The notes under the pieces are model-generated. The model saw only the letters and a program-made list of their open reading frames with translations, was not told the origin of the DNA and did no database searches. A DNA stretch of 7,487 nt from Acidobacteriaceae bacterium (GTDB taxonomy: Bacteria > Acidobacteriota > Terriglobia > Terriglobales > Acidobacteriaceae), in assembly GCA_009781125.1 (NCBI GenBank), contig WQYS01000108.1, positions 1-7,487 on the forward strand, written 5' to 3'. Position numbers and translations under genes: made by a program. Of the stretch, positions 1,172-4,149 are shown piece by piece; position 1 is the stretch's first letter; each line of letters starts with the position of its first letter.

Positions 1172-2758
1172 ATGTTTGCAGATAATCCCGACTTCTACCC
1201 CACACCGCGCCGCATCGCGCGGAAGATGCTTGCCAGAATCACCAACAAAGACGCCAGATATTTTCTTGAGCCGAACGCAGGAAAAGGCGATATCGCGGAC
1301 GTGATTAAAGACCCCTGTAACTTCGAGGAGTACGAGGCCGAGAACCCGGACCTTGTCGAAGAGAGCTACCAGCGGCGCGTGGAGTCGCACCACTGGCACT
1401 CTGCAAACAACCGCGTACACGTTGACGTGATTGAAAACTATCCCGCGCTTATGCAGGTGCTTCGCGGCAAAGAGTATGAGGTCGTGGGCGACGATTGGCT
1501 CACCTATGAAGGTGTCAGCTACTACGATGCCATCGTGATGAATCCCCCCTTCAGCGCGGGAGCAAAGCATCTTCTCAAGGCTTGGGACTTCCTTCATCAC
1601 GGCGAGATCGTCTGTCTGCTGAATGAGGAGACCATTAAGAACCCATGCACCGAGGAACGTGTTCGTTTGGCTCAGATCGTCGAGCAGTTTGGAGCGGTCG
1701 AGTATCTGGGCGATTGCTTTTCCACCGCCGAGCAGAAGACCTCAGGGAATGTTGCAATGGTCTGCCTCAAGAAAGGGGCTGTAGACGACGCCCCCGACCT
1801 CTGGGCAACCGAGACCACAGCGGAAAAGGACTACAGCGGCGGCGATTACGACGGCGACGTGAAGATGCTTGCCATCCGCGACAATCTGGGCAACATGGAA
1901 CACTGGTACAACATGGCGAATGAGCACTGGTTTCAAGGGATCGCGCACATCCGCAAGGCCCGTCTCTACATGGACCAGAACCGGGTCAGTGACTCCGATG
2001 GAACCCGCGATGCCGACTTCGGAAAGATTCTCGAAATGGCCCTCTCCAATGTAGGCACCAGCCGGGCGGAGTTTCTACGCCGTCACCGCCGACTCGCCTG
2101 GACCAGCGTCTTTCATCAGATGGAGTTTAACCGATGGCTCGACAGCAAGCAGCAGGACCGTTTCTTGCGCGATGTTCAGCGGGACAGCACCATTCCGTTT
2201 ACGGCAAAGAATATCCGCGCCACCCTTGAAAACGTCGCTATGTCCCGCAAGAAGCTATTCGATGAGAGCGTGGCAAATGTCTTCGATGAGCTATGTAATC
2301 ACGCCGTCGAGAATGGTTCCGGCCCAGTCATGCCGCATTGCGTCAAAAACCACTGGAATCGCGGCGACGGATGGAAGACCAACGATAACTATAAGGTCAA
2401 TCGCAAACTCATCTTCCCTTACGGCATTCGCTATGACTCGTTTTTAGGATTCGGAATGCCCTACCACGGCAACGCCCGCACCATCTACAGCGATCTTGAC
2501 CGCATCCTCTGTGTGCTGGACGACCAGCCCTTCGACCAATGCTTCACCATCGGCAAGGCTCTCGAAGGCAGATGCCGCGAGGTAGCGAAGCGCACCACCA
2601 GCGGAGGATGGACCTTCGAGTCTGAGTATTTCGAGGGACGTTTCTATAAGAAAGGCACCGTCCATCTGAAATGGAAGCGTCTGGACCTCTGGGAAGCATT
2701 CAACAAGACCGCCGCAGCAGGAAAGAAGTGGCTAGAGCCTGTTATTAGGTTTGCTTGA
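1172..2758 (+). CDS. SAM-dependent N6-adenine-type methyltransferase with DUF4942, C-terminus cut off by an IS
   Basis: The truncated product is 528 residues. Its N-terminus has a class I methyltransferase fold: a motif-I-like FLEPNAGKGD (residues 31-40), a motif-II-like HVDVIE (83-88) and the catalytic motif IV NPPF (124-127) in YDAIVMNPPFSAGAKHL. NPPF/DPPY motifs are typical of amino-methyltransferases acting on adenine N6 in DNA, so DNA modification is the likely role, although RNA or protein substrates cannot be excluded. Residues about 270-520 match DUF4942, with VNRKLIFPYG, FESEYFEGRFYKKGTVHLKW and a terminal KKWL. The DUF4942 function is not established; such proteins are frequent on plasmids and integrative elements. 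The IS end replaces the native tail with EPVIRFA and a stop at 2756-2758. Methyltransferase and DUF4942 domains remain complete, so the protein may still be active. No partner restriction gene is visible. Confidence 0.85.
   Translation: MFADNPDFYPTPRRIARKMLARITNKDARYFLEPNAGKGDIADVIKDPCNFEEYEAENPDLVEESYQRRVESHHWHSANNRVHVDVIENYPALMQVLRGKEYEVVGDDWLTYEGVSYYDAIVMNPPFSAGAKHLLKAWDFLHHGEIVCLLNEETIKNPCTEERVRLAQIVEQFGAVEYLGDCFSTAEQKTSGNVAMVCLKKGAVDDAPDLWATETTAEKDYSGGDYDGDVKMLAIRDNLGNMEHWYNMANEHWFQGIAHIRKARLYMDQNRVSDSDGTRDADFGKILEMALSNVGTSRAEFLRRHRRLAWTSVFHQMEFNRWLDSKQQDRFLRDVQRDSTIPFTAKNIRATLENVAMSRKKLFDESVANVFDELCNHAVENGSGPVMPHCVKNHWNRGDGWKTNDNYKVNRKLIFPYGIRYDSFLGFGMPYHGNARTIYSDLDRILCVLDDQPFDQCFTIGKALEGRCREVAKRTTSGGWTFESEYFEGRFYKKGTVHLKWKRLDLWEAFNKTAAAGKKWLEPVIRFA
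2735..2747 (+). repeat. Left terminal inverted repeat of the IS
   Basis: GAGCCTGTTATTA is an exact reverse complement of the right end. The transposase stop codon (TAA on the minus strand, 2745-2747) lies inside it. Confidence 0.9.
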
Positions 2759-3557
2759 TAAGCAAGAAGAGCTTGGCGAGCATGAGGCAGGCGAAAGCGA
2801 GGTAGTGAAGGCCAGCGAGGGTCTGAGCGAGGCGTTCGTAATCTCTGGCGAGACGACGGAAACGAGCCGCCCAAGCGAAGGAGCGTTCAACAACGCATCG
2901 TCTCGGCAGCAGTACAAAACCCTGCTTGGCTTCGGTATGTTTGACCACTTCCAAGGCGATGCCGTGCCGTAGAGCCGCATCGGCTGTCTCTTCTCCGGTG
3001 TAGCCCTGATCGACATAAGCTAACTCCACATGCTCTCCTGTGATCTGTTGTACTTGTTCAGTAAGCTGCTGGACCTGTGCGCGGTCCTGTTCACTGGCTG
3101 GGGTCACGTGTAGGCTCAACAGATGTCCCAGTGTATCCACTGCCGCATGTACCTTCGATCCTTTACGCCGCTTGGCTCCGTCGTAACCGCCACGTGCGCC
3201 CGATTCCGGTGTCGATTGCAGTGTACGGCTGTCCAAGATGATGGCTGTCGGCTGTGGTTGACGCCCACTGAACTCACGCAACAGTAAACGTAAATCTTCA
3301 ACCATGATCTGGAAGACGCCAGCCCGTAGCCAACGTTGCATCTGCTGATAGACCACGTACCAGGGCGGCAGATCGTTGGGCAGATAACGCCACTGCGTTC
3401 CTGTGCGCGCCACATAACGCACGGCATTGAACACCGCTCGCAACGGATACTCGCGTTGTGCCGCGTCTTCACGGCACAGCGTCAGATAGGGAGCTACAAA
3501 TCCCCACTCCTCGTCACTTACATCGCTGGGATATCCATGCTGCCTCTGCTTCGCCAT
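2745..3557 (-). CDS. IS5-family DDE transposase
   Basis: This cut-and-paste transposase of about 270 residues binds the inverted repeats and moves the element. Numbered from the upstream GTG at 3572, an N-terminal DUF4096-type domain (YPSDVSDEEW, then residues to about 85) precedes an RNase-H-fold catalytic domain. The likely DDE triad is D114 in ILDSRTLQST, D188 in AYVDQGYTGEE and E229 in RRCVVERSFAWAARFRR. Length and order match intact family members, and there is no frameshift. I prefer the ATG at 3557 because relatives start a few residues before YPSDVSDEEW. However, the GGAGGA there directly abuts the ATG, and the GTG at 3572 has no ribosome site, so expression is probably weak. It runs antisense to the host gene and fills nearly the whole element. 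Confidence 0.92.
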   Translation of the reverse strand: MAKQRQHGYPSDVSDEEWGFVAPYLTLCREDAAQREYPLRAVFNAVRYVARTGTQWRYLPNDLPPWYVVYQQMQRWLRAGVFQIMVEDLRLLLREFSGRQPQPTAIILDSRTLQSTPESGARGGYDGAKRRKGSKVHAAVDTLGHLLSLHVTPASEQDRAQVQQLTEQVQQITGEHVELAYVDQGYTGEETADAALRHGIALEVVKHTEAKQGFVLLPRRCVVERSFAWAARFRRLARDYERLAQTLAGLHYLAFACLMLAKLFLLIKQT

Positions 3558-3618
3558 TCCTCCATACTGCACAATAGAAGCATGGCCAACTAACCTATTG
3601 ATCCATAATGAATAAAGT

Positions 3619-3631
3619 TAATAACAGGCTC
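3619..3631 (-). repeat. Right terminal inverted repeat of the IS
   Basis: TAATAACAGGCTC is the exact complement of the left repeat. Similarity between the ends stops after 13 bp. Confidence 0.9.
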
Positions 3632-3633
3632 TA

Positions 3634-4149
3634 GGCGAAGATACGCAGCAGTACCGTCCCAAACAGCGCCGCGAGGAGCCGGAGTGGTATTGCAGGGAAA
3701 ACGGCCACCAGTTCGAGGAAGGCGTTTGCCAGCGATGCGGCGACTCGGAGATCGATGAAGTGGCAGCCGTCGAATGCGACCTTTGCCGCGCCATCTTCGC
3801 GCAGACAGGCCGCAAGCATTGCCCCATCCACGAGGACACCGCTTCGCTCCATTCGCCGGAGATCGTCCCTCAAGCTCTACCGGCAGAAACCAGTCAGACC
3901 GAGACCGTGCTGGCAGGTTCCGGCACGGACGCGGAAACCGAACTCCGCTCCATCTGGAATGATCGAGGCTACCCCAAGGAGTACCAGGACACCATCCTTG
4001 ACGCCGCGCTCGAAAAGGCCCACGCGGAGCCAGCCGCCGAACTCCGCGCCCTATGGGATGAGCAAGGCGTCCCCAGAGCGCGGCAGGATGCCATCCTTGC
4101 CGACACGCTCAAGCAGGCTCAGGATGTCACTCGACTCTTCCCGCGCTAG
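3634..4149 (+). pseudogene. Severed 3' part of the DUF4942 methyltransferase gene: Cys/His clusters plus helical repeat tail
   Basis: Joining base 2734 directly to 3634 continues the methyltransferase frame (…KKWLGEDTQQYRPK…) without a stop to TAG at 4147-4149. That gives 692 residues in total, so this is the displaced tail of the upstream gene. In repaired numbering it has C541, H546, C553 and C556 (C-x4-H-x6-C-x2-C) and then C569, C572, C584 and H587 (C-x2-C-x11-C-x2-H). These are two candidate zinc sites. A Pro/Thr-rich linker and two related 33-residue units (ELRSIWNDRGYP…, ELRALWDEQGVP…) follow. A GTG at 3760 is in frame but splits the cysteine clusters, and I see no reason to regard it as a real start. 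The fragment is probably untranslated. Zinc binding could serve nucleic-acid or protein recognition. Confidence 0.85.
3940..4137 (+). repeat. Two 99-bp (33-codon) diverged tandem units
   Basis: Units start at 3940 (ELRSIW…) and 4039 (ELRALW…), exactly 33 codons apart. They share ELR-x-[IL]W-[ND]-[DE]-x-G-x-P, followed by QD-x-IL and an Ala/Lys-rich helix. Divergence shows the duplication is old. They are probably paired helical modules. Confidence 0.75.

Follow-up and report, generated by a model that had tools for sequence, protein, structure and literature searches.

The window, by which we mean the whole analysed stretch of 7,487 nucleotides (contig WQYS01000108.1 of the Acidobacteriaceae bacterium assembly GCA_009781125.1), contains a gene for a DUF4942 DNA methyltransferase that is interrupted by an IS5-family insertion sequence (IS). 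The element probably inserted recently, at the only CTAG inside the gene, with its place being set by its preference for CTAG; we assign a probability of about 0.85 to this joint claim. The insertion has parted the catalytic and DUF4942 core of the enzyme from a C-terminal tail of zinc type. The features concerned are the following (positions refer to the window).

1172..2734, plus strand: core of the DUF4942 DNA methyltransferase, 521 residues (frame translation, Pfam, homologue search; many relatives begin at the matching Met)
1199..1789, plus strand: M.TaqI-like N6-adenine-type methyltransferase domain, approximately residues 10–206, with the NPPF motif (structure match of the relative P0003; motif in the sequence)
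2087..2719, plus strand: DUF4942 domain match, residues 306–516 (PF13708, 120 bits against a cut-off of 25)
2732..2735, no strand: left target-site copy CTAG, or TA within CTAG (inverted-end and flank analysis)
2736..3630, no strand: IS5-family insertion sequence with inverted ends (Pfam, NF033580, end analysis)
2745..3572, minus strand: IS5-family transposase, 275 residues (PF01609, PF13340, NF033580)
3631..3634, no strand: right target-site copy CTAG, or TA within CTAG (inverted-end and flank analysis)
3634..4149, plus strand: severed C-terminal tail, 171 codons and a stop (open frame, homologue search)
3691..3738, plus strand: first Cys/His cluster of the tail, C20 to C35 (conserved Cys columns retained)
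3775..3831, plus strand: second Cys/His cluster of the tail, C48 to H66 (conserved Cys and His columns retained)
3940..4125, plus strand: two head-to-tail helical repeats in the tail, one copy also in P0003 (sequence comparison)

The frame of the core runs from the ATG at 1172 to a stop codon at 2756–2758 and codes for 528 residues, the last seven of which are contributed by the element. Once the frames of core and tail are joined, 521 + 171 = 692 residues result. A preliminary description of this DNA had proposed that the IS interrupts one gene with a repaired frame of 692 residues, and this proposal is confirmed by the frames, the inverted ends and relatives that carry both parts in one chain. 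Core and tail were searched separately. The core search gave 2809 relatives, the best 120 of which were examined; one of them is the window itself, and 115 of the other 119 reach the end of the core (P0081, P0082, P0085 and P0108 stop short of it and look like fragments). Among these best 120, 88 of the 115 relatives reaching the core's end carry the tail in the same chain, and it starts at the next residue in 82 of the 88 (at +1 in four, at +4 in one and at −1 in one). All 80 of those relatives with an identity of at least 60% have the tail, in P0014 only its first 17 residues. Homologues with both parts in one chain, on which the proposal depended, are hence present.

The tail was also not found to be a separate gene in relatives. 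A search with the tail of P0002 yielded 59 proteins among 63 candidates, and PF13708 is present in all 59. Eleven proteins of 108–299 residues were found as candidates for a free-standing tail family; P0121 is the window's own tail, and nine of the ten others also match the end of the core. P0124 (108 residues), considered as a standalone tail, begins with a short unrelated stretch followed by the seam motif, and it resembles a product of the same gene with a broken frame. A search for the core across 297 genomes from a single phylum gave no match beyond the genome already known. The tailed DUF4942 protein P0132 (1102 residues) has about 500 more residues behind the tail, a part without a Pfam match.

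The transposase of the interrupting element matches PF01609 as well as the IS5-family model NF033580, the latter with 202.3 bits against a cut-off of 110. The inverted ends are 21 nucleotides long (2732–2752 and 3614–3634), are 90% complementary and include CTAG at both edges. Because the tips of the element are G and C, the duplication is readable as CTAG or as TA. Both features tested for membership of the IS5 family are present, namely a DDE transposase above the cut-off and inverted ends with a short target duplication of the TA/CTAG type, and we take the element to be IS427-like. The nearest copies found share approximately 66–68% DNA identity and are located in plasmids; at the protein level, identities of 69–70% were observed in the 297 genomes of one phylum, and no near-identical copy was seen in these sets. 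A search of viral contigs with the transposase returned no relative.

Relatives of the element were inspected at ten loci (L017–L022 and L103–L106), five of which had both ends readable. CTAG was found on both flanks in four of these five and TA in the fifth. The CTAG at the insertion site is the only one in the gene, apart from one at 4146 over the stop codon, and neither gene piece has a further CTAG (synonymous shuffles average 2.6). Given the CTAG preference of the element and this sole CTAG in the gene, the site can be accounted for without selection. As judged from the sequence, nothing shows that selection placed the insertion, and target preference would explain its position. A literature search on IS target sites returned no paper on this element.

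For the distribution of the tail, a tree of 110 cores was calculated, comprising 82 tailed rows, 27 without this tail and the window; six tailed rows were omitted as their start is missing. All 82 tailed rows are found on one side of one branch with a support of 100, compared to an average of 24.3 changes for shuffled labels, and the tail was therefore gained or lost once among the rows compared. Within the tailed clade, the window groups with P0002 and P0003 (support 93). The 27 tailless relatives (of 115) have identities of 50–53%. Of these, 18 end 7–22 residues past the point matching the cut, 16 of them after 7–11 residues, and the remaining nine have other extensions of 37–109 residues. 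Among the best 120 of 2809 relatives, the window is the only case in which the tail was seen cut off by an insertion. In plasmid records, 177 matches to the core and none to the tail were obtained; 147 phage records match the core, and the tail is present in only two, both of them Tunturi phages. Where the core ends and the tail begins is marked by the insertion in the window; among the relatives compared, this tail is confined to one clade. According to the preliminary description, Cys/His clusters and helical repeats are lost with the tail. Both are indeed located in the severed part, but the repeats are not a general feature of such tails: the window tail has two copies, P0003 has one, end remnants were recognised by eye in P0036 and P0047, and no other convincing match was found among the proteins examined.

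No stop interrupts the severed tail, which agrees with its relatives at 18 of 20 conserved columns, all conserved Cys and His among them. In the core, 4 of 187 conserved columns are altered; as many or more are altered in 24 of the 82 relatives, whose median is 2. Within the sequence we see no mark of long decay, and the core may bear a slight excess of changes. Weighing against our explanation, one departure of the core affects motif I (S35N) and two others are unusual substitutions (V192G and Y198C), and only 9 of the 48 nearest rows depart as often. In addition, searches with exact patterns of each flank alone revealed no second copy of the same allele, empty or filled, in viral contigs. 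The tail is not easily made alone, because stop codons precede it in frame, its first start is a GTG at 3760, after the first cluster, and no outward promoter-like site was found in 2600–4300.

Motif I ahead of NPPF defines the gamma type of adenine-N6 methyltransferases. The NPPF motif was read in the core, with NPP being invariant among the aligned relatives; motif I precedes it in the window sequence, and the relative P0003 has an M.TaqI-like fold. The structure matches listed span residues 1–212 at most, and the statement on the fold is restricted to that part; no fold is assigned to DUF4942 or to the tail. A sequence comparison with solved structures gave five matches with E values of 0.3 to 0.82, which were taken as chance. 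Among the open-licence papers naming DUF4942, none deals with its function by title.

The match to PF13708 ends at profile position 186 of 190 in the window, and likewise in the intact proteins P0002 and P0003. However, a conserved closing block, KKWLGEDTQQYRP (KKWLGxxT), spans the cut, which lies between L521 and a conserved Gly. All 38 sequences of a selected alignment have this Gly; of the 82 tailed rows, 79 have G at the position and three have A. The conserved WLGxxT block of the DUF4942 phage clade is not intact in the window product. In the model of P0003, residues 505–527 form one helix, and the cut corresponds to residue 522. The truncated product swaps the end of this last predicted core helix for the element-coded EPVIRFA. 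In the model of the truncated product, the core is unchanged up to residue 520, with a predicted local distance difference test (pLDDT) score of 86 for residues 511–520 and 47 thereafter. The earlier statement that the methyltransferase and DUF4942 stay whole is in line with the Pfam boundaries, but not with the severed closing block. The claim that exactly the tail is removed has to be given up, as the cut falls inside this block, the conserved Gly is lost and the end of the last core helix is replaced.

Insertion sequences are common places of misassembly, which could favour the view that core and tail are two genes whose seam is due to chance or to an assembly error. We regard this as very improbable: in the 82 of 88 relatives mentioned above, one and the same chain is matched by both flanks without any gap, the target copies match each other, and a free-standing tail family is absent from the tail searches. 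The truncated protein would end with KKWL and the seven element-coded residues, resembling natural tailless relatives. As most of these stop at a similar distance past this point, the core may plausibly be functional. We lean slightly towards a working enzyme, an M.TaqI-like adenine methyltransferase with DUF4942 whose C-terminal edge is perhaps weakened by the loss of GxxT. Against this, the truncated enzyme may be dead, because it lacks the Gly (79 of 82) as well as a Thr found in 73 of the 82 tailed rows, and its last predicted helix is interrupted. It is quite possible, if somewhat short of even odds, that the insertion simply kills the gene, the product being unstable without the closing GxxT block and the tail, and that a young pseudogene results. 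The near-invariance of the Gly argues for such an outcome, as does the tail kept by all 80 of the relatives with at least 60% identity (17 residues of it in P0014), from which tail loss seems not to last in the clade. On the other hand, the 16 of 27 tailless relatives ending just 7–11 residues beyond the equivalent point, the core model unchanged up to residue 520, a core that is not clearly decayed and a Pfam match as long as in intact relatives are more in line with a retained activity.

As for the lost part, the tail could be what recognises the target, a possibility raised in the preliminary description, and the insertion would then leave the methyltransferase with no defined target. In favour of this, all 82 rows of the tailed clade have the tail, and its two zinc-type clusters could bind DNA. 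Nevertheless, we consider this improbable: 27 of 115 relatives do without the tail, as do plasmid relatives (none of the 177 core-matching records matches it), DUF4942 presumably occupies the expected place of a target domain, and what follows the clusters in the tail tends to be short and variable. Binding of a partner is the more plausible role for the tail, as far as its sequence allows a judgement. The candidate partner considered here is the sliding clamp, and it is at best a tentative one. In this reading, the tail would serve one phage clade for docking and not for specificity, ending in part of the clade in a sliding-clamp peptide that brings the enzyme to new phage DNA. Equally doubtful is the wider proposal that phages, including at least two of Acidobacteriota, use a tail with zinc clusters and peptide to dock a DUF4942 adenine methyltransferase on the clamp, which would then methylate new DNA at the fork.

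This proposal originates from tail ends such as QSSLF, QATLF and QESLF, which were noticed in relatives. The bacterial clamp-binding peptide is described as a variable C-terminal motif with the consensus QL(S/D)LF (PMC9690074). Counted on the same tails on which it had first been noticed, Q..LF was found in 14 of the 81 post-cluster tails that could be delimited (out of 82), compared to a mean of 0.39 and a maximum of 4 in 2000 shuffles. A looser pattern was found in 24 of 81 (mean 5.95, maximum 13 in 1000 shuffles). Within the last 12 residues, Q..LF is present in 13 of 82 tailed enzymes (P0010, P0013, P0015, P0022, P0049, P0051, P0060, P0064, P0071, P0075, P0076, P0079 and P0083) versus 7 of 797 distinct frames with a minimum length of 100 residues from the retrieved loci; these frames were called mechanically and include the DUF4942 genes of those loci, one of which is among the seven positives. 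The motif needs nine changes on the tree. It also occurs in 4 of the 27 forms without the zinc-type tail, two of the four having been seen before counting. Distant viral relatives gave 1 of 54 distinct tails, a value reached by 232 of 2000 shuffles and hence no excess. The window itself speaks against clamp docking with its tail end DVTRLFPR, which lacks Q-x-x-L-F, as do the ends of 69 of the 82 tailed relatives. A genome with both a Q-x-x-L-F tail and a clamp was not seen among the records compared, and no paper linking phage methyltransferases to the clamp was found among the open-licence PubMed Central papers listed. From the sequences, the clamp motif should be regarded as a lead and does not amount to a result. 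Taken alone, the presence of an IS in an accessory gene of phage type is nothing unusual; its value would lie in pointing to a testable role of the tail, methylation coupled to replication via the clamp.

The nearest named carriers are gp78 of Tunturi_4 (PP885687) and gp10 of Tunturi_5 (PP885688), which are Tunturiibacter phages. Their DNA methyltransferases have cores 75% and 65% identical, respectively, to that of the window over 521 of 521 residues, with the same kind of tail directly after. Both genes are uninterrupted, their tails end without helical repeats, and an annotated DNA polymerase processivity factor is located directly upstream. The two phages were reported as unrelated (PMC11924767); the word 'methyltransferase' does not occur in the main text of that paper, as far as this text was available. 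As Tunturi_4 and Tunturi_5 (L015 and L016) share the tailed methyltransferase and the annotated clamp, this pair is perhaps a module moving between phages. Eight distinct tailed phage records were compared (Tunturi_4, Tunturi_5, L007, L008, L009, L010, L011 and L027). A clamp gene lies beside the methyltransferase in three of the eight and approximately 0.8 kb away in a fourth; searches with three clamps detected none in the other four, which may reflect low sensitivity, because the clamp of Tunturi_5 matched only itself. The window has no match to these three clamps. A 150-residue frame about 3 kb upstream of the tailed methyltransferase in L011 (2543–2995) contains a segment resembling the second Cys/His cluster only (CEYCRTIAGVTGRHHCPIH).

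In the remainder of the window, no phage hallmark genes were found among ten frames with Pfam or five with PHROGs, besides the methyltransferase and a DNA-binding protein. An upstream frame of 186 residues has no relative in viral contigs. A DUF6876 gene (4595–4996) follows the methyltransferase; a DUF6876 gene near a DUF4942 methyltransferase was also observed in a contig of an alphaproteobacterial metagenome-assembled genome (L004, 4096–4449 and 5565–6209), so the pairing recurs. A phospholipase D (PLD)-type nuclease frame on the minus strand (6379–7224, PF13091) adjoins a weakly barrel-like frame (7014–7487).

Compared to known systems, the element resembles other IS5-family elements of the NF033580 group in its single DDE transposase, its inverted ends and its CTAG/TA target. 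M.TaqI shares the fold of the first 206 residues and the NPPF motif with the window-type enzyme, at 22% identity over the aligned part, but has the TaqI target domain where the window-type enzyme has DUF4942 and the zinc-type tail instead. The tailless DUF4942 proteins of plasmids and phages have the same two core domains as that of the window, but no zinc-type tail. If clamp docking of the tail is true, the insertion would have uncoupled the enzyme from replication and left its chemistry in place. How such docking would work is illustrated by DNMT1 with its PCNA motif (PMC9690074), an unrelated protein whose likeness is one of the proposed mode only.
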